From: Ignavibacteria bacterium
GTDB taxonomy: Bacteria > Bacteroidota > Ignavibacteria > Ignavibacteriales > Melioribacteraceae
Direction of reading: 5' to 3'
Assembly (NCBI GenBank): GCA_012719345.1
Contig: JAAYAN010000212.1
Location: forward strand, 1 to 43,797
Length of the DNA stretch: 43,797 nt
Shown in pieces: positions 20,986 to 28,824 of this stretch. Made by a program: the position numbers and the translations under genes. Numbering within the stretch: position 1 is the stretch's first letter; the number at the start of each line of letters is the position of its first letter. A model generated the notes under the pieces. That model saw only the letters and a program-made list of their open reading frames with translations. It did no database searches and was not told the DNA's origin.

Positions 20986-21591
20986 TTATTTATGCCGTTT
21001 TTCAAGATTTTTTACAATCTCGCTTAAGTCGATATCCAAATAATTCAGCATAACAAATAAATGGAAAATCAAATCGGAAGTTTCGTTTATTATTTCCTCT
21101 TTATCTTCGTTTTTTGCAGCAATAATTGTTTCTACAGCTTCTTCGCCAACTTTTTGAATTATTCTGTTCCCGCCTGATTTAAACAGCTTTGTAGTATACG
21201 AATTTTCCGGAAGACTTTTTTTCCTCTCCGAAATTAAATTAAACAATCCTGAAAGCCACTTAATATCTCTGTCTTTTTGAATTCCAAAACAAGAGTAATT
21301 ACCCATATGACATGTCGGTCCGTCCGGCTGCGCATAAATTAACAGACTGTCGCTGTCGCAATCGACCTTTATATCTTTTACATGCAAATAATTATTGGAC
21401 GTCTCACCCTTTGTCCATAATCTTTGTTTTGTCCTGCTGAAAAAAGTTACTTTTTTTAATTCAATTGTTTTTTCTAATGCTTCCCTGTTCATAAATCCGA
21501 GCATAAGTACTTTTTCGGTAACCGAATCTATAATTATTGCAGGAATCATTCCATTAAGTTTCGAGAAATTCAGTTTATCAATATTTATCAT
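20986..21591 (-). CDS. hisI: Bifunctional phosphoribosyl-AMP cyclohydrolase / phosphoribosyl-ATP pyrophosphatase
   Basis: Fused HisI-HisE (hisIE), steps 2 and 3 of histidine synthesis. The HisI part (1 to about 108) has MLGFMNREALEKT, FFSRTKQRLWTKGETSNN, and the metal ligands in DCDSDSLLIYAQP and GPTCHMGNYSCF. The HisE part (about 112-201) has SYTTKLFKSGGNRIIQKVGEEAVETIIAA and the acidic NETSDLIFHLFVML. ATG overlaps the hisF stop by four bases. Last gene of the operon. Confidence 0.95.
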   Translation of the reverse strand: MINIDKLNFSKLNGMIPAIIIDSVTEKVLMLGFMNREALEKTIELKKVTFFSRTKQRLWTKGETSNNYLHVKDIKVDCDSDSLLIYAQPDGPTCHMGNYSCFGIQKDRDIKWLSGLFNLISERKKSLPENSYTTKLFKSGGNRIIQKVGEEAVETIIAAKNEDKEEIINETSDLIFHLFVMLNYLDIDLSEIVKNLEKRHK

Positions 21592-22343
21592 AATCTTACA
21601 TTAACACCGTTTTGTTTAAGATATTTTTTTAATTCCATTATATTAAGTATTTGATAGTGGAACAAGCTTGCTGCCAAACAAGCTTCCACATCGGCATCTT
21701 GGAATGCCTCAAAAAAATGTTCTTTTGTCCCTGCCCCTCCTGAAGCAATAACCGGAACGCTCACCAATTTCACTAACTCGTTAAGAAATCTTAAATCGTA
21801 ACCTTCCTTTGTTCCATCCCTATCCATTGAAGTAAGAAGAATTTCACCGGCACCCAGATCAACTGTTTTTCTGCACCATTCAAATGCCTCAATTCCTGTT
21901 GGTTCGGTACCTCCTTTAATAAATACTTCGTATCCGCCGTTAACAAATTTCACATCAATTGCAGCAACAATTGCCTGGCTTCCAAACTGTTTTGAAGACT
22001 GTTTTATTAAATCCGGATTTTTTACTATCGATGTGTTTAATGAAACTTTATCGGCACCTGCTTTCAACAATGATTCTATGTCGTTTAATTGAGAAATTCC
22101 GCCTCCTACCGTAAAAGGTATTCTTATAACTTCAGCTACTTCTTTTACAAGCTGCAGCAATGTTTTTCTTTTTTCCAGTGAAGCGGTTATATCAAGAAAT
22201 ACAAGCTCGTCAGCGCCTTCACGATAATATCTTTCGGATAATTCAACGGCAGAACCGGCATCCCGCAAATTTACAAAATTTGTTCCTTTTACCACTCTGC
22301 CGTCTTTAACATCCAAACAAGGTATAATTCTTTTACTTACCAA
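21588..22343 (-). CDS. hisF: Imidazole glycerol phosphate synthase, cyclase subunit
   Basis: TIM-barrel cyclase that uses ammonia from HisH to make imidazole glycerol phosphate and AICAR. 251 residues with the catalytic Asp in [36 protein letters not shown], the second Asp in [23 protein letters not shown] and [13 protein letters not shown]. It overlaps hisA by 11 bases and hisI by four. Confidence 0.97.
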
Positions 22344-23052
22344 TTTTTATCAGTTCCTCAATTTTAATTCTGTTTTCATAAATTGCTTTACCAACAATAA
22401 CTGCAAAAACATTCATTTTCTTCAATTTAACTATGTCATCCGATGAACTAACGCCTCCTGATGCAAATAAATTAATCACCGGAAATTCATTCTGAAGTTT
22501 TTCATATAACAAATAACTTGGTCCTGTTAACATTCCGTCCTGCGAGATATCTGTGCATAAGAAATTTTTAATATTAAATGAGGAACAATATTTTATATGT
22601 TCCGAAATCGTAATCTCTGTTTTTTCAGTCCAGCCTCTTACTGCAATTTTTTCATCAAAAACATCAGTTGCTATAATAATCTTTTGAGCGCCCAATTTTT
22701 TAACAATTTTTTCAAATTCCGGCTTGTCTTTAACCGATATTGAACCTATAATTATACAGTCCACACCGGCATCTATCGCTTTTTCGGCATCTTCATAACT
22801 TCTTATTCCCCCGCCAAACTCAATTTTTAAGGAGGTTTTGGATTTTATTTCCCTGATATTCTCAATGATGTTAATATTTCCTGTTTTTGAACCGAGCAAA
22901 TCAACAAGATGCAGCCATTCAAATCCTGCATCCTGATAAATTAAAGCTTGTTCAATAATGGAATTGGAATACACTGTAACTTTTTGGTAATCGCCTTTAA
23001 GAAGACGCACAACCTGATTATTAAGTATATCTATAGCGGGAATAATTCTCAT
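22333..23052 (-). CDS. hisA: ProFAR isomerase (phosphoribosylformimino-AICAR-P isomerase)
   Basis: TIM-barrel isomerase, step 4. The catalytic Asp lies in MRIIPAIDILNNQVVRL, followed by WLHLVDLLGSK, EFGGGIRSYEDA, the second Asp in IIATDVFDE, and TDISQDGMLTGPSY. About 239 residues from ATG at 23052. A GTG two codons upstream (23058) is an alternative start. AAGAAG precedes. It is separated from hisH by a short gap and overlaps hisF. Confidence 0.95.
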   Translation of the reverse strand: MRIIPAIDILNNQVVRLLKGDYQKVTVYSNSIIEQALIYQDAGFEWLHLVDLLGSKTGNINIIENIREIKSKTSLKIEFGGGIRSYEDAEKAIDAGVDCIIIGSISVKDKPEFEKIVKKLGAQKIIIATDVFDEKIAVRGWTEKTEITISEHIKYCSSFNIKNFLCTDISQDGMLTGPSYLLYEKLQNEFPVINLFASGGVSSSDDIVKLKKMNVFAVIVGKAIYENRIKIEELIKIGK

Positions 23053-23066
23053 TTTCACTTCTTAAT

Positions 23067-23654
23067 TTATGCTAGTTCAATAAAATTATTAAGTACTTTC
23101 AAACCGGCTTCACCAGATTTTTCGGGATGAAATTGAACACCGTAATAATTATCTTTTTTAACAGCAGCGGAAAATTCCAGTCCATGCGAAGATGATGCAA
23201 TTGCATAATCGTTTAAAGGGACGTAAAACGAATTAGCGTAATAAAAATATATTTCGTCTTTTATCCCGTTAAAAAGTACATTTTCTTTTAATAGTTTCAC
23301 TCGGTTCCATCCCATATGCGGTACTTTTACAGCGGAAGGATCGAACATATCAGTGCTTCCCGGTAAAATTCCCAAACCGGCAGAATTTCCCTCTTTCGAT
23401 CTTTCGCACATTACCTGCATACCTACGCATATACCTAAAAGAGGTTTTTTCATTATTCTTAAAAGGTTTACCAGATTAAGCAAATGCAGTTTTTTAATTG
23501 TAAATCCGGCTTCGCCTACTCCGGGAAAAATAATCTTTTCGGAATCGCAGATATCCTTTTCGGAATTTGTAATTTTGTAATCGGCATTAATTGATTTTAA
23601 TGCATTTGCAACCGATGCTGTATTTCCTGCTCCGTAATCTATAAGTGCAATCAT
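23067..23654 (-). CDS. hisH: Imidazole glycerol phosphate synthase, glutaminase subunit
   Basis: Class I glutamine amidotransferase that feeds ammonia to HisF. 195 residues: IALIDYGAGN at the start, oxyanion segment FPGVGEAG, nucleophile C76 in LLGICVGMQ, and the His-Glu pair in GVQFHPEKSGEAG. ATG overlaps the hisB stop by four bases. Confidence 0.96.
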   Translation of the reverse strand: MIALIDYGAGNTASVANALKSINADYKITNSEKDICDSEKIIFPGVGEAGFTIKKLHLLNLVNLLRIMKKPLLGICVGMQVMCERSKEGNSAGLGILPGSTDMFDPSAVKVPHMGWNRVKLLKENVLFNGIKDEIYFYYANSFYVPLNDYAIASSSHGLEFSAAVKKDNYYGVQFHPEKSGEAGLKVLNNFIELA

Positions 23655-24535
23655 AACATTCCTTTAGTTGACGGCAGAGCGCCGTTTGTTCTTTCATCTA
23701 TTCTGCAGGCTTCGTTAAGAGCTTTTGCAAATACTTTAAACATTGCTTCAATTTTATGATGATCGTTTTTCCCTTTTGCACGGATATAAATATTTGCTTT
23801 TAATCCCGAAGCCAGTCCCCGGAAAAATTCCTCTGTCAATTCAGTTGGGAAATCGCCTACCTTTTCGCGCTCGAATCTGCATTTGAAATTAAGATAAGTT
23901 CTTCCACCTAAATCTATTGTGCATTTAGAAACCGATTCATCCATAGGAATAAAATAACCGTATCTTTTAATTCCTTTTTTTGTTCCTAATGCTTCAAGCA
24001 ATGCTTCGCCTAAAGTAATTCCAACATCTTCAACTGTATGATGTTCGTCCACGTGCAGATCGCCTTTAACATTAATTTTAAGATCAATATTCCCATGCTT
24101 TGAAATCTGCTCAAGCATATGGTCGAAAAATCCGACTCCGGTTGATATTTGCGAAAGTCCGTTGCCATCTAACCGGGTTTCAATTGTAATATCCGTTTCT
24201 TTTGTCTTTCTCTTTTTCAGCGATGATCTTTCGCTTTTTATAATTTCTTCAGCAGCAGATAAAAAATCGTTAATGCTGTCCGAAATTACTATTGTATTCT
24301 CCGAATTGCTTCTTTTCTTATCGCTGATAAAATAATCGAATTTCTCTTTACCTGCTTTTTTTACCGAAATGTTTTCCAGTTTTAATATATCATTCAGTAA
24401 AAAATCCTTTGAACCTAAATCAGCATCCGAAAGGAGTAGATAACCTCTTTCCGATAGTTTTTTTAATCCGCTTATAAGTCCTTTGGATTTAGCATTTTTA
24501 ATATCAAACAACGCTTTTTCTATTTTAACTTTCAT
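23651..24535 (-). CDS. hisB: Imidazoleglycerol-phosphate dehydratase with a degenerate HAD-like N-terminal domain
   Basis: Residues 108-294 are a complete dehydratase (step 6): GVGFFDHMLEQISKHG, DLHVDEHHTVEDVGI, FIPMDESVSKC, EFFRGLASG and KNDHHKIEAMFKVFAKAL, with all manganese-binding His/Glu motifs. Residues 1-105 are extra. They resemble a shrunken HAD phosphatase: FD at 10-11 where the catalytic DxD should be, LKKLSERGYLLLSDAD, and VISDSINDFLSAAE like HAD motif IV. The second Asp of DxD and the cap/zinc region of HisB-N are absent, so histidinol-phosphatase activity is unlikely. Bifunctional HisB is usually about 355-380 residues; this one is 294. Overlaps hisC and hisH by four bases each. 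Confidence 0.93.
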   Translation of the reverse strand: MKVKIEKALFDIKNAKSKGLISGLKKLSERGYLLLSDADLGSKDFLLNDILKLENISVKKAGKEKFDYFISDKKRSNSENTIVISDSINDFLSAAEEIIKSERSSLKKRKTKETDITIETRLDGNGLSQISTGVGFFDHMLEQISKHGNIDLKINVKGDLHVDEHHTVEDVGITLGEALLEALGTKKGIKRYGYFIPMDESVSKCTIDLGGRTYLNFKCRFEREKVGDFPTELTEEFFRGLASGLKANIYIRAKGKNDHHKIEAMFKVFAKALNEACRIDERTNGALPSTKGML

Positions 24536-25581
24536 TTTAATATTTCGTTTAGTTCTTTAAGAAAGATATCATTTTCTTCTTTATTTCCGATAGTAACCCG
24601 CAAACAATTTTCAAGATTTATCTGTGAACTCCGGTCTCGAATAATAACACCTTTTTCCGCCAGTTTTAATTGAATATTTTTTGCATTTGGAACCCGGAAT
24701 AATAAGAAATTTGAATCAGAATCAAAAACTTTTTGTATCGCAGCATATTTTTCAAGTTCATTTTTCAATCTTTTACGCTCTTTTATAATCTCAGCAACAT
24801 ACAAATCTTTTTTACTATAATTATTTACTGAATTTATAACAGCTTGCCTGGTAAGTTTATTTAAATTGTAAGGGGCTTTAATTTTCATAAAATATTTAAT
24901 AATGCTCTCGCTTGCGGCGCAATAACCGCAGCGAACTCCAGCAAGCCCCCAAGCTTTCGAAAATGTCCGGAGAACAACAAGGTTATTATATTTTTCTATT
25001 TCTTTTATAACACTTCCCAACTCTGTAAAATCAATGTATGCTTCATCAACAGCCAAAATTCCATCGAACTTTTCAGCCAGATTGATAATATCTTTTTTTC
25101 TTAACAAATTACCCGTAGGGTTATTAGGCGAACAAACAAAAATAATTTTTGTCTGCGCGTCTGTGTTTGCAAGTAACTTTTCGGTATCAAGCTGAAAGTC
25201 TTCAGTAAGAGTTACGTTTTTAACTTCAACATCATTTATTTCGCAAGCTACCTGATACATTCCGTAAGTAGGCTCGGCTGTAATAACATTGTCTTTTCCT
25301 GGGTTGCAAAAAATCCTTACAAGCAAATCTATAACTTCGTCGGAACCTACGCCGAAAAATAGATTTTTAGCAGGGATGCCAATATAATTTCCTACAACCT
25401 TTCGCAAATCGTTTTGCGCCGGATCCGGATATCTATTCAATTCAATGTCTTCTATCTCAATTACGCTACCGATTCCGTTTTCGTTTGCATCTAAAAGAAT
25501 GCCGCTTAAATAGCTGTCGCGCGCAGAAGTATACGGTTTAAGATTCCTGATATTTTCGCGAACTAATTTGTCAATTTCCAT
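24532..25581 (-). CDS. hisC: Histidinol-phosphate aminotransferase
   Basis: PLP-dependent class I/II aminotransferase, step 7. 349 residues: LDANENGIGS, NRYPDPAQNDLR, FFGVGSDEVIDLLVRIF, CSPNNPTGN, VDEAYIDF and the PLP lysine in LRTFSKAWGLAGVRCGY. It overlaps hisD by 11 bases and hisB by four. Confidence 0.96.
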   Translation of the reverse strand: MEIDKLVRENIRNLKPYTSARDSYLSGILLDANENGIGSVIEIEDIELNRYPDPAQNDLRKVVGNYIGIPAKNLFFGVGSDEVIDLLVRIFCNPGKDNVITAEPTYGMYQVACEINDVEVKNVTLTEDFQLDTEKLLANTDAQTKIIFVCSPNNPTGNLLRKKDIINLAEKFDGILAVDEAYIDFTELGSVIKEIEKYNNLVVLRTFSKAWGLAGVRCGYCAASESIIKYFMKIKAPYNLNKLTRQAVINSVNNYSKKDLYVAEIIKERKRLKNELEKYAAIQKVFDSDSNFLLFRVPNAKNIQLKLAEKGVIIRDRSSQINLENCLRVTIGNKEENDIFLKELNEILK

Positions 25582-26863
25582 TTTCTATCCTTATTTTTAC
25601 AGCATTTGCATGAGCTTGTAAATCTTCTGTTTCGGCAAGTGTGATAACTGTTTCCGAAATACTTTTTAATCCGTTTTTTGTTAATTCCTGAAACGTAATT
25701 CCTTTCATAAAAGATTCTACATTTACACCGCTGAACGATTTGGCATAACCGTATGTCGGTAGCGAATGATTTGTTCCGCTGGCATAATCGCCTGCGCTTT
25801 CAGGAGAATACTTTCCCAAGAAAACAGAACCCGCGTTGGTAATATCTTTTATTGTTTCATTAAAATTTTCTATGCTGAGAATTAAATGTTCCGGAGCAAA
25901 ACTATTGCTGAATTCAATTGCCTGTTTAATATTGTTTACAACAAGTATATATGAATTATTTAACGAACTGTCGGCAAATTCTTTTCTTTTCAGAGTTTTG
26001 GATTGTTTTTCTGCTGCATCCGAAACAGCTTGTGCAATTTCGAAATCTGTTGTAACTAAAATAGCTTGCGAATCTAATCCGTGTTCAGCCTGCGAAAGCA
26101 AATCCGCAGCAACAAATTCCGGATTTGCAGTTTTATCTGCAATTACTAAAACTTCACTCGGACCTGCAGGCATATCAATCGCACAGCCATCGGGATCAAT
26201 ACTGACAATTGATTTTGCAGCAGTTACATATTGACTTCCTGGACCGAATATTTTATCAACTTTGGGAATACTACTCGCACCGTAAGCCATTAGCCCGATA
26301 GCCTGTGCTCCACCGACCAGATAAAATTCTTCAATTCCGCATTTTTCCGCTGCATAAAGCAATGCAGGATTAACAATTCCGTTTTTTGCAGGCGAACATA
26401 CAACTATTCTTTTGCATCCCGCAATTCTTGCAGGAATACCCAGCATTAACATAGTTGAGGGCAATACTGCAGTGCCTCCCGGAATGTAAAGTCCAATATT
26501 TTCTATCGGTCTGTACTGCCTGAAACATTTTACTCCGGGTAAAATTTCAACGCTGTAACCTTCGGATTTCTGATATTTATGAAACTCTAAAATATTCTCA
26601 TAGGCACTGTCAATTGCTTTTTTAACTTTCTCGTCCAAATACTTTGCGCCTTTGCATATTTCTTCTCTGCTAAGTTTGATATTATCGGTAGCAAGTCCGT
26701 CAAACTTTCTGGCATATTTCAGTACTGAATCAATTCCATTAAGCTTTATATCTTCTAAAACAGGCTTTACAATATCAAGTACTTTTTGATTGTTAATTGC
26801 CGGTCTTTTAAAAAGATATTTAATTTCATCGTCATTTAATTTATTTACATCTATAATTTTCAT
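25571..26863 (-). CDS. hisD: Histidinol dehydrogenase
   Basis: Zinc-dependent NAD enzyme for the last two oxidations to L-histidine. 430 residues: YIPGGTAVLPSTMLMLGIPA, VGGAQAIGLMAYG, KIFGPGSQYVTAAK, DMPAGPSEVLVIAD, SQAEHGLDSQAIL, and the catalytic region FAPEHLIL through GDYASGTNHSLPTYGYA. ATG lies one base after the hisG stop, so translation is probably coupled. Confidence 0.97.
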   Translation of the reverse strand: MKIIDVNKLNDDEIKYLFKRPAINNQKVLDIVKPVLEDIKLNGIDSVLKYARKFDGLATDNIKLSREEICKGAKYLDEKVKKAIDSAYENILEFHKYQKSEGYSVEILPGVKCFRQYRPIENIGLYIPGGTAVLPSTMLMLGIPARIAGCKRIVVCSPAKNGIVNPALLYAAEKCGIEEFYLVGGAQAIGLMAYGASSIPKVDKIFGPGSQYVTAAKSIVSIDPDGCAIDMPAGPSEVLVIADKTANPEFVAADLLSQAEHGLDSQAILVTTDFEIAQAVSDAAEKQSKTLKRKEFADSSLNNSYILVVNNIKQAIEFSNSFAPEHLILSIENFNETIKDITNAGSVFLGKYSPESAGDYASGTNHSLPTYGYAKSFSGVNVESFMKGITFQELTKNGLKSISETVITLAETEDLQAHANAVKIRIENGN

Positions 26864-26864
26864 A

Positions 26865-27734
26865 TTAAACTATCATATTATCAATTTGTAAAAGCAAAAT
26901 CCCCGAAGCTCCTGCATACTTAAGTTTGTTATTTATCTGCCAGAATGTTTCTGAAGGAATTACTGCATGAACGGCAACAAGATTTTCATCTGCAAGCGGT
27001 AAAACTGTTGGACTTTTAATTGAAGGCAATATTTCAATAACTTTTTCAAGCTGGTTCTTTGGTACGTTCATCATAAGATATTTCGATTTTTTTGCAGTAA
27101 GAACCGAATCTATTCGGATTAAAAGATTATCCAAAAGTTCTTTTTTGTGGGCATCCATTTCTACTGCCGATGATTGAATAAGAACAGCCTCCGATTCGAA
27201 AACAGGAAATGATTTTTTTAGTTTATTCATTTTCAATGTGTTTCCGGTAGAGACAATATCGCATATCATATCGGCAACACCCAAAGAAGGAGCAATTTCA
27301 ACTGAGCCGCTTATTTCAATAATTTTTGCATTTAAAGAATTTTCTTTTAGAAATGATTTTAGGATATTAGGATATGATGTTGCAATTGTTTTCGCGTTAA
27401 TTTCATTCAGGTTACTTAGTTCTTTGTTTTCAGGTACAGCAATCAGAAGTCTGCACTTACTGAAACCAAGCCTTTTTACAATTGATACCGCTGCCTGTTT
27501 TTCAACCATCACATTCTCGCCCACAATTCCGATATCCGCAACTCCGTCCTTAACGTATTCAGGTATATCATCATCGCGAAGAAACAGAATATCAATATCA
27601 TAATTACGCGAAGGAACAAGAAGTCTTTCACCGTAATTATCAACTTCAAGCCCGCAAGCTTTCAGCATTTCCATCGTTTTTTCTGAAAGTCTGCCTTTTT
27701 TTTGCACTGCTAATTTCAAGTTTCCGTTTGCCAT
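26865..27734 (-). CDS. hisG: ATP phosphoribosyltransferase, long form
   Basis: First enzyme of histidine synthesis (PRPP + ATP). At 289 residues it is the long form with its own C-terminal regulatory domain (about 215-289), so no HisZ is needed and histidine feedback is expected. Visible motifs: LKLAVQKKGRLSEKT, DIGIVGENV, ADMICDIVSTGNTLK (PRPP loop) and the C-terminal SPTVLPL followed by VAVHAVIP. AAAGG precedes ATG. It is the first structural gene of the operon and lies 18-45 bases downstream of a terminator hairpin and a His-rich leader peptide. Confidence 0.96.
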   Translation of the reverse strand: MANGNLKLAVQKKGRLSEKTMEMLKACGLEVDNYGERLLVPSRNYDIDILFLRDDDIPEYVKDGVADIGIVGENVMVEKQAAVSIVKRLGFSKCRLLIAVPENKELSNLNEINAKTIATSYPNILKSFLKENSLNAKIIEISGSVEIAPSLGVADMICDIVSTGNTLKMNKLKKSFPVFESEAVLIQSSAVEMDAHKKELLDNLLIRIDSVLTAKKSKYLMMNVPKNQLEKVIEILPSIKSPTVLPLADENLVAVHAVIPSETFWQINNKLKYAGASGILLLQIDNMIV

Positions 27735-27751
27735 AATTTTCCTTTAAAATT

Positions 27752-27776
27752 AAAAACCCCGGTTAAGGCCGGGGTT
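27752..27776 (-). terminator. Attenuator terminator of the his operon
   Basis: AACCCCGG (27776-27769, read on the minus strand) pairs with CCGGGGTT (27762-27755) around six bases, and continues into TTTTTAATTTT. This very GC-rich stem lies between the leader peptide and hisG, 18 bases before the hisG start. It is inside the transcribed leader rather than at the end of a gene, which is the expected position of an attenuator. Confidence 0.8.
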
Positions 27777-27820
27777 CATTTATTATTTATTTACAAAAAA
27801 TTAAATTTTGTCCTAGCCTC

Positions 27821-27868
27821 TTAGCAAAGATTTGAATGGTGATGAAGATGAATAACTTTTTTTAACAT
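27821..27868 (-). CDS. hisL: Histidine operon leader peptide
   Basis: A 15-codon frame reading MLKKVIHLHHHSNLC and a TAA stop. Four of five consecutive codons (positions 7, 9, 10, 11) are His, in DNA where His is rare. It lies 87 bases before hisG, with a terminator hairpin in between. The stretch covering the stop codon and the next nine bases (27812-27823) can pair, with one bulge and one mismatch, with the 5' half and loop of the terminator (27764-27773). That gives an antiterminator which a ribosome at the stop codon would cover and a ribosome stalled on His codons would leave free. There is no good ribosome site. It is too short for ordinary gene finding. Confidence 0.8.
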   Translation of the reverse strand: MLKKVIHLHHHSNLC

Positions 27869-27888
27869 ACTTATCTTAAATAATTTAT

Positions 27889-27925
27889 GCAGATAATATA
27901 GACAGAATTAACATAATTTCAAAAA
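27889..27925 (-). promoter_or_regulatory. Possible promoter of the his leader and operon
   Basis: On the minus strand TTTTTG (27925-27920) could be a -33 element and TATTATCTGC (27898-27889) a -7 element, with 21 bases between. The latter is an imperfect match to TAnnTTTG. The leader ATG follows about 20 bases later. The site lies immediately after the RNase D stop codon. Confidence 0.35.
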
Positions 27926-27927
27926 CA

Positions 27928-28824
27928 TTATTTTATTCTGCTTGTTTTTTTTGAATATTCATTTTCGGCTTTTTTAAAAGCTTCGTATATCAAATCAATT
28001 AATGGCGCAGCTCTTTTAGGAATTGAGATGTTTTTTAGCAAAGAATCCGCAGAAATATTTTTCTTTACAGCCAATTTAATTAAATCTTCATTTTTTATAA
28101 CCCAGAATGGCGGGAAATCAATTTTACGTGCAATAATATCACGTGCATTATACAAATATTTAAGAACATTTTTTTGCTGATAATTCAAATTACCACTGCC
28201 TTTAATCTGCAAATACGGGTTCTTTTTTTCCCTTATGTCGCATTTTTCGAGCTGTATATTTTTACTTCTCAGAATATCTTTTTGTTCGTCAGTCAGATTT
28301 TTATTAAGATAATTCTCAAGTTCAAACAGATATTTAACATCATTTTCTGCATATTTAAGCTGGTCGTCGCTTAAAGGTCTTTTGTTCCAATCGGATTTTT
28401 GCTTTTTCAGCTTATGAGAATTATCTACATTTAAAACTTCCGAAACAATATTTTCAAGACCAAGCTTGGCATATCCCAATAATTTGAATCCTGCTTGAAC
28501 GTCATAAATATTTCTCAATTTTATTCCTGAAGAATGCTTAAGCAATTTTACATCGAATTCGGCACAAAACATTACTTTGCAGATTTTTTCATCTTCAAAT
28601 ATCGATTTCAAAGAGCTGATATCTTTAATTGTTACCGGATCAACTAAATATATTTTGTCTTCAACTCTTAATTGAACAAGACAAATATGAATTCCATACC
28701 TGTGAAGATTTGATTCGCCTTCAAGATCCAGACCTATTTTTGTAATCCCGCAGTTTTTTATAATTCCGTCAAGATTTTCAAGTTCTTCGTTAGTGTTTAT
28801 CAAATTATTTTGCAAAAAAACCAA
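27928..28824 (-). CDS. rnd: Ribonuclease D-type 3'-5' exonuclease with HRDC domain
   Basis: Trims RNA 3' ends (tRNA maturation in E. coli). The DEDDy active site is visible: D33 and E35 (GLDLEGES), D91 (FCAEFDVKLL), Y158 and D162 (YAENDVKYL). An HRDC nucleic-acid-binding domain follows at about 212-285 (LKYLYNARDIIARKIDFPPFWVI). At 298 residues it is shorter than E. coli RNase D (one HRDC, not two). The frame opens with TTG at 28824. An ATG four bases upstream (28828) would be in frame only if the seven-base A run at 28814-28820 were six, so the start is uncertain. The his promoter follows directly downstream. Confidence 0.85.
   Translation of the reverse strand: MVFLQNNLINTNEELENLDGIIKNCGITKIGLDLEGESNLHRYGIHICLVQLRVEDKIYLVDPVTIKDISSLKSIFEDEKICKVMFCAEFDVKLLKHSSGIKLRNIYDVQAGFKLLGYAKLGLENIVSEVLNVDNSHKLKKQKSDWNKRPLSDDQLKYAENDVKYLFELENYLNKNLTDEQKDILRSKNIQLEKCDIREKKNPYLQIKGSGNLNYQQKNVLKYLYNARDIIARKIDFPPFWVIKNEDLIKLAVKKNISADSLLKNISIPKRAAPLIDLIYEAFKKAENEYSKKTSRIK

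Follow-up and report, generated by a model that had tools for sequence, protein, structure and literature searches.

The window, a stretch of 43,797 nucleotides from an Ignavibacteria bacterium, harbours a his operon on the minus strand. All eight his genes, hisG-D-C-B-H-A-F-IE, were found in one direction with NCBIfam matches above the curated cut-off, and the operon downstream of the leader is complete. The HisB protein (23651-24535, minus strand) carries about 100 residues N-terminal of the part matched by the dehydratase models; the match begins near residue 102, and at residue 81 in one longer model.

A short leader ORF and an intrinsic terminator are placed between the rnd-like gene and hisG on the minus strand (Table 1). 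The initial annotation had described a 15-codon frame in which His takes four of five successive codons, and this was borne out (minus strand, 27868-27821). Its further claim, that a GC-rich terminator at 27755-27776 is followed by hisG, also had the coordinates right, the nine-pair hairpin spanning 27777-27754 and hisG starting at 27734. The gap between the hairpin and the hisG start is 19 nt. Four terminator-like sites were detected in the segment 26800-28900, compared to 1.0 ± 1.0 in shuffled sequences, and two of the four are the leader hairpin itself, counted once on each strand.

Table 1. Position of the leader elements and neighbouring genes within the window.
Feature	Position	Strand	Description or basis
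Candidate promoter, weak	27893..27922	-	TTGAAA, 16 or 18 nt, then TATATT or TATTAT; 10/12 consensus matches
rnd-like gene upstream of leader	27928-28824	-	Ribonuclease D match below curated cut-off
Leader peptide ORF	27821..27868	-	15 codons, ATG to TAA, MLKKVIHLHHHSNLC; from sequence
Regulatory codons	27836..27850	-	CAT CTT CAT CAC CAT (H L H H H), expected stall site at low His-tRNA; from sequence
Antiterminator 5′ arm (A)	27812..27820	-	Immediately 3′ of the leader stop codon; pairs with 27773-27765
AT-rich spacer from A to terminator	27778..27811	-	Small hairpin nested in the antiterminator loop
Shared strand (B)	27765..27773	-	Five terminator 5′-arm bases and four loop bases; alternative pairings
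Intrinsic terminator hairpin	27754..27777	-	Nine pairs, loop of 6, -15.7 kcal/mol; GC-rich
T run of terminator	27756-27752	-	From sequence
hisG, first structural gene	26865..27734	-	TIGR00070, 205.7 bits against a cut-off of 75.75
Remaining his genes hisD, hisC, hisB, hisH, hisA, hisF, hisIE	20986..26863	-	NCBIfam matches

Sigma-70-like sites that scored like the candidate promoter numbered 13 in 2.1 kb, compared to 9.3 expected. The exact motif TANNTTTG, the Bacteroidota -7 motif, was absent upstream of the leader in the window. Of 39 members of the order, 23 carry it no more than 60 nt ahead of the leader start, against 2.7 expected, an enrichment that supports transcription starting before the leader across the family, without bearing directly on the window.

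Conservation of the leader and terminator upstream of hisG

The hisG gene was present in 42 of 58 genomes, among them that of the window; they represent three families within a single order, and all 42 upstream regions were examined. The hisG of G201, from the same family, and that of G125, below the cut-off, were not among these loci. In 41 of these 42 genomes, hisG was preceded by a His-rich leader, that is a short ORF with at least three His within seven codons; an intrinsic terminator was identified in 40, among them the window. The exceptions were L037, lacking both leader and terminator, and L038, with a leader and no terminator by the rule used. Three more members of the window's own family all displayed the leader arrangement (3/3), and in the Ignavibacteriales MAG PLLW01000019.1 the leader reads MNFNTLYHHHHFNSHIMCRR, with the terminator recognised by eye.

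Within the 200 nt upstream of hisG, an ORF with at least three His in seven codons arose by chance in 13 of 1050 dinucleotide shuffles and was found in 40 of the 42 real sequences. The His run was retained across members while adjacent residues varied, and the sequence farther upstream of the leader differed among relatives. The initial annotation had named loss of the His codons or of the hairpin in close relatives as grounds for giving up an attenuator; with the conservation found here, that refutation failed.

Pairing between the leader end and the terminator

The strand termed B may pair with either of two partners, arm A or, for its stem part, the terminator 3′ arm. The twelve bases 27812-27823 were originally proposed to pair with 27764-27773 with one bulge and one mismatch. 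This pairing can form; it contains one mismatch and a bulge of 2 nt and amounts to only -3.15 kcal/mol. A better register was found, in which 27820-27815 and 27813-27812 pair with 27765-27770 and 27772-27773, respectively. This register has eight pairs, no bulge and one A.C mismatch at -8.35 kcal/mol, and the bulged one was dropped in its favour. The small hairpin nested in the spacer, predicted by MFE folding of nascent RNA that ends at the terminator loop, adds about 2.5 kcal/mol and brings the value to -10.9 kcal/mol. The A:B duplex of the window scored -12.2 kcal/mol, and one in 200 shuffles was as good. Arm A of the window, AGAGGCTAGG, is less regular than in most members, which have a variant of GCCGG.

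For covariation across the order, A comprised everything between the last His codon and the terminator, and B the terminator 5′ arm plus loop. Among 40 members, the members' own A:B pairs summed to -544.6 kcal/mol compared to -429.0 ± 14.7 for swapped partners, the lowest of 10000 swaps reaching -487.1. The leader of L031 duplicates that of L029, and with L031 left out (n = 39) the sums were -528.2 and -414.4 ± 14.2 kcal/mol, with 0 of 20000 permutations as low; these permutations ignore phylogeny, and some of the genomes belong to the same genus. The compensatory changes that the initial annotation had suggested looking for are thus present in the antiterminator helix. Two controls displayed no covariation: A against the terminator 3′ arm (17410/20000 permutations) and A against the 30 nt that precede the leader (13975/20000).

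Individually, 34 of the 40 A:B duplexes were equalled by no more than 10 in 200 shuffles. The members' own B ranked best of the 40 in only four, with a median rank of 5, and for five members (L002, L003, L009, L039 and L041) at least 20 foreign B arms paired better.

The loop of the terminator gives a more detailed picture. Loop positions +3 and +4 take part in terminator pairs in just 9 and 3 of the 39 members, and matched A in 29 and 30, with permutation means of 16.0 and 22.8, these per-column permutations being biased towards pairing since the arms were selected by their own pairing; the A:B sums given above, at n = 40 and n = 39 with the whole stretch as A, involve no such choice of arm. 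Pairs of position +3 with A were chiefly T-A, C-G and A-T. The match of these two loop positions to A is not accounted for by the terminator.

The covariation bears on a rival explanation of the locus, namely that the hairpin is the ordinary terminator of the rnd-like gene, with a hisG promoter downstream of it and a leader ORF arisen by chance. The rnd-like gene does end at 27928 on the same strand as the hairpin, and promoter-like sites commonly arise by chance. A chance ORF would scarcely recur in nearly every genome of the order despite the divergent sequence farther upstream, a plain terminator does not explain a covarying antiterminator, and the 19 nt ahead of hisG leave little room for a promoter. 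We regard this explanation as very improbable.

Ribosome position and the predicted default state of the leader

In enteric bacteria, the his attenuator comprises a His-rich leader ORF, an intrinsic terminator and an alternative antiterminator, and the ribosome acts as the sensor. The same logic had been recognised in the window by the initial annotation, and it is supported by the conservation of leader and terminator together with the antiterminator covariation. The mechanism may be depicted as follows: RNA polymerase would start upstream, and a ribosome would trail it through the leader ORF. When His-tRNA is scarce, the ribosome would stall on the His codons and leave arm A (27820-27812) free, and A would pair with B (27773-27765) once B has been synthesised, so that no terminator forms and hisG is transcribed. 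When His-tRNA is ample, the ribosome would reach the stop codon at 27823, where its leading edge would hide A; B and the terminator 3′ arm would then pair, and transcription would stop ahead of hisG.

The geometry is consistent with this scheme. Assuming a ribosome footprint that reaches +15 from the P site, 36 of 39 members, the window among them, have arm A fully exposed during a stall at the last His codon and fully hidden once the ribosome stands at the stop codon. Exposure at the stall follows in part from the search itself, which looked for the arm downstream of the last His codon, and a placement control was applied: arms placed at random between that codon and the terminator gave a mean of 15.8 members and at most 30 in 20000 simulations. 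The proposal that stalling exposes the antiterminator and that reaching the stop codon masks its arm is probably correct as far as this assumed footprint goes. In many members the arm lies within the 3′ end of the leader ORF and would be translated as ...AG, ...VGLY or ...CRR.

Folding of the RNA states agreed with the proposed switch. The nascent RNA ahead of a stalled ribosome, folded up to the terminator loop, was predicted to form A:B with P of at least 0.5 in all 39 members (0.98 in the window), and when the part that a ribosome would cover on reaching the stop codon was masked, all 39 were predicted to form the terminator. In the complete free RNA, equilibrium folding favoured the terminator in 32 of 39, the window included. 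The antiterminator had been judged weaker than the terminator, which holds at equilibrium but not in the order of synthesis, where A:B is predicted before the 3′ arm exists in every member. The notion that A:B must outweigh the terminator was dropped in view of the 32 members; in most members, the window included, the antiterminator must instead work by forming first.

Based on these comparisons, the leader, the terminator, the A:B helix and the geometry are supported, and we infer from them that transcription starts upstream, that the leader is translated, that ribosomes stall in it and that the operon responds to histidine in vivo. We read the locus as a ribosome-mediated transcription attenuator of the his operon which senses the supply of charged His-tRNA, with a probability of about 0.93.

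A different sensor, such as a histidine-sensing T-box, another riboswitch or a protein-binding leader, was weighed against this reading. At gathering score, no Rfam family matched in the window or in the loci of nine relatives. In permissive mode, His_leader RF00514 matched on the same strand at 27748-27851 with 23.4 bits (E 0.075), below the gathering threshold of 49 bits, and membership in that family was rejected on this score. No T-box covariance model was among the 29 permissive matches to 27700-28000, and a T-box or other riboswitch was rejected on these searches. T-boxes do regulate his genes in Firmicutes and Actinobacteria (PMC9413887). A sensor of this kind leaves the conserved His codons unexplained, and likewise where arm A sits with respect to the stop codon. 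Its probability is minute, slightly lower still than that of an ordinary rnd terminator.

The state of the attenuator when no ribosome enters the leader would depend on a protector helix between the sequence ahead of the His codons and A. In the window this helix was not distinct (-3.0 kcal/mol, a value equalled in all 100 shuffles; P 0.01), and the ribosome-free nascent RNA was predicted to form A:B (P 0.96). With no protector predicted and A:B expected in the nascent RNA, an untranslated leader may leave the operon of the window on by default. This would be the reverse of superattenuation, in which an untranslated leader does not turn the operon on and which is known from enteric bacteria and from rli60 of Listeria (PMC5864092).

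The family as a whole displayed another picture. The sequence ahead of the His codons paired with A plus its flanks at -337.5 for the members' own combinations compared to -279.5 ± 13.4 for permuted ones (0/20000), and with the bare arm A 45 of 20000 permutations did as well. A protector was singly distinct, with at most 5 of 100 shuffles as good, in 12 of 39 members. Before B emerges, it was predicted with P of at least 0.5 in 33 of 39, compared to 21.6 (17-25) with shuffled leaders; with B present it was still predicted in 16, and A:B took over in 20. The family shows signs of the enteric three-helix design, in a non-uniform manner. The lack of a predicted protector concerns this one member, and no family of two-helix attenuators is claimed. 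A bolder view is that the ribosome is the sole block to the antiterminator in a two-helix switch that is fully on when untranslated, and that the his, trp and ilv leaders of the order form one regime of attenuation reliant on close coupling of transcription and translation in Bacteroidota; we hold this as tentative, at somewhat below even odds.

Other lineages, other operons and known attenuators

Outside the order, His leaders were found at 2 of 21 class-level hisG loci, all above the family cut-off and one of them (L064) limited to 200 bases. At the phylum level, 36 hisG loci were chosen from the match list, one to four per family code; further matches, among them the sole one of family f43, were not included. 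A His-rich ORF was present in 17 of the 36, and 11 of these 17 also had a terminator. Leader and terminator occurred together in 13 class- and phylum-level members, and in these A:B covaried again, with a sum of -221.7 compared to -143.8 ± 12.2 for permuted pairs (0/20000). For one locus of this set (L102) the start was taken inside the leader, by which the last His codon and the arm are unaffected. In 5 of these 13, fewer than 9 nt separate the last His codon from the start of the best duplex, which would lie partly under a stalled ribosome, and the geometry is less clean than within the order.

Four loci of one phylum-level family, f34 (L093, L094, L095 and L096), displayed long, GTG-start His-rich leaders ahead of hisG. 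By the rule used they had no intrinsic terminator, and a hairpin surrounding the His run was seen by eye; control at these loci is perhaps Rho-dependent or translational. They lend some plausibility to control of hisG translation by the leader, through translation attenuation or coupling, in place of termination, and attenuation via the ribosome-binding site has a precedent (PMC9413887). For the window, a switch of translation is at odds with the terminator and its T run, conserved in the order as described above, and with the covariation of A with the terminator 5′ arm and loop. We give it only a trace of probability, on a par with that of a T-box or related sensor.

Leaders of other amino acid operons were also noticed in the same order. 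Trp-rich leaders preceded trpE at all 21 loci (L104-L124), 20 of them with a terminator; the leader in the window's own genome (L110) reads MKMTNKKYNSVNWLWWWRNPNISTQ. With L115 and L123 excluded, the remaining 19 loci showed covariation of the leader end with the terminator 3′ half (0/10000) and, unlike in his, none with the 5′ half (1866/10000). Ile/Leu/Val-rich leaders were found ahead of ilvD at 14 of 19 loci (L147-L165, own genome L149) by rule and at four more by eye, with a pairing resembling GGTCAATCCC...GGGGTTGACC downstream of the stop codon; 18 of the 19 had no intrinsic terminator by the rule used. Ahead of pheA, one of 22 loci (L133) had a Phe/Tyr-rich leader, MTKNFSTYSPFFYFGYFYFIYPKKGTCMVLR, with a terminator, and two further loci had an F/Y-rich ORF only.

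The locus adds a well-supported his attenuator in the little-studied order Ignavibacteriales, with members elsewhere in the phylum, and predicts histidine-responsive control of a biosynthetic operon there. Such an attenuator works only if the ribosome closely trails RNA polymerase, and it would thus be indirect evidence of this coupling in Bacteroidota, for which the his attenuator could serve as a ready reporter. The mechanism is known; the form in this genome is possibly simplified, and for the lineage no description of leader-peptide attenuation in Ignavibacteria was found in a search of open-access literature.

Until a survey of 2010, leader-peptide systems were known from Proteobacteria and Actinobacteria, ermC aside, and Firmicutes were added there (PMC2965389). 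His-tRNA-dependent leaders are cited for gamma-proteobacteria and Firmicutes in another paper (PMC4833913), and a 2021 study on his genes of this superphylum contains a single mention of attenuation, for E. coli and Salmonella (PMC8305728). In Flavobacterium psychrophilum, a structured 5′ element lies ahead of hisG, and hints of leader-peptide attenuation have been reported for that species; the element shares with the window the phylum Bacteroidota, the position, the lack of an Rfam match and the suggestion of attenuation for amino acid operons, and the description compared here gives no leader sequence, mechanism or covariation (PMC9723704).

By energy, the locus resembles the ilv-leu attenuator rli60 of Listeria, which has a short leader and an antiterminator weaker than the terminator (-10.3 and -17.1 kcal/mol); rli60 differs in its branched-chain codons and in that loss of the start codon lowers transcription, the opposite of what is predicted for the window (PMC5864092). 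His leaders in Firmicutes were predicted in the Bacillus cereus group, Eubacteriales and Erysipelotrichales; they have leaders of three to five consecutive His codons, share a terminator and an antiterminator upstream of his operons with the present locus, were likewise discovered by comparison, and belong to a different phylum; the likeness is one of description only (PMC9413887). With the enteric hisL attenuator (RF00514), the window shares the His-rich leader ORF, the terminator before hisG, the alternative antiterminator and ribosome position as the sensor (PMC9413887), and it differs in having four His codons, no predicted protector, a score of 23.4 bits and a host from another phylum.
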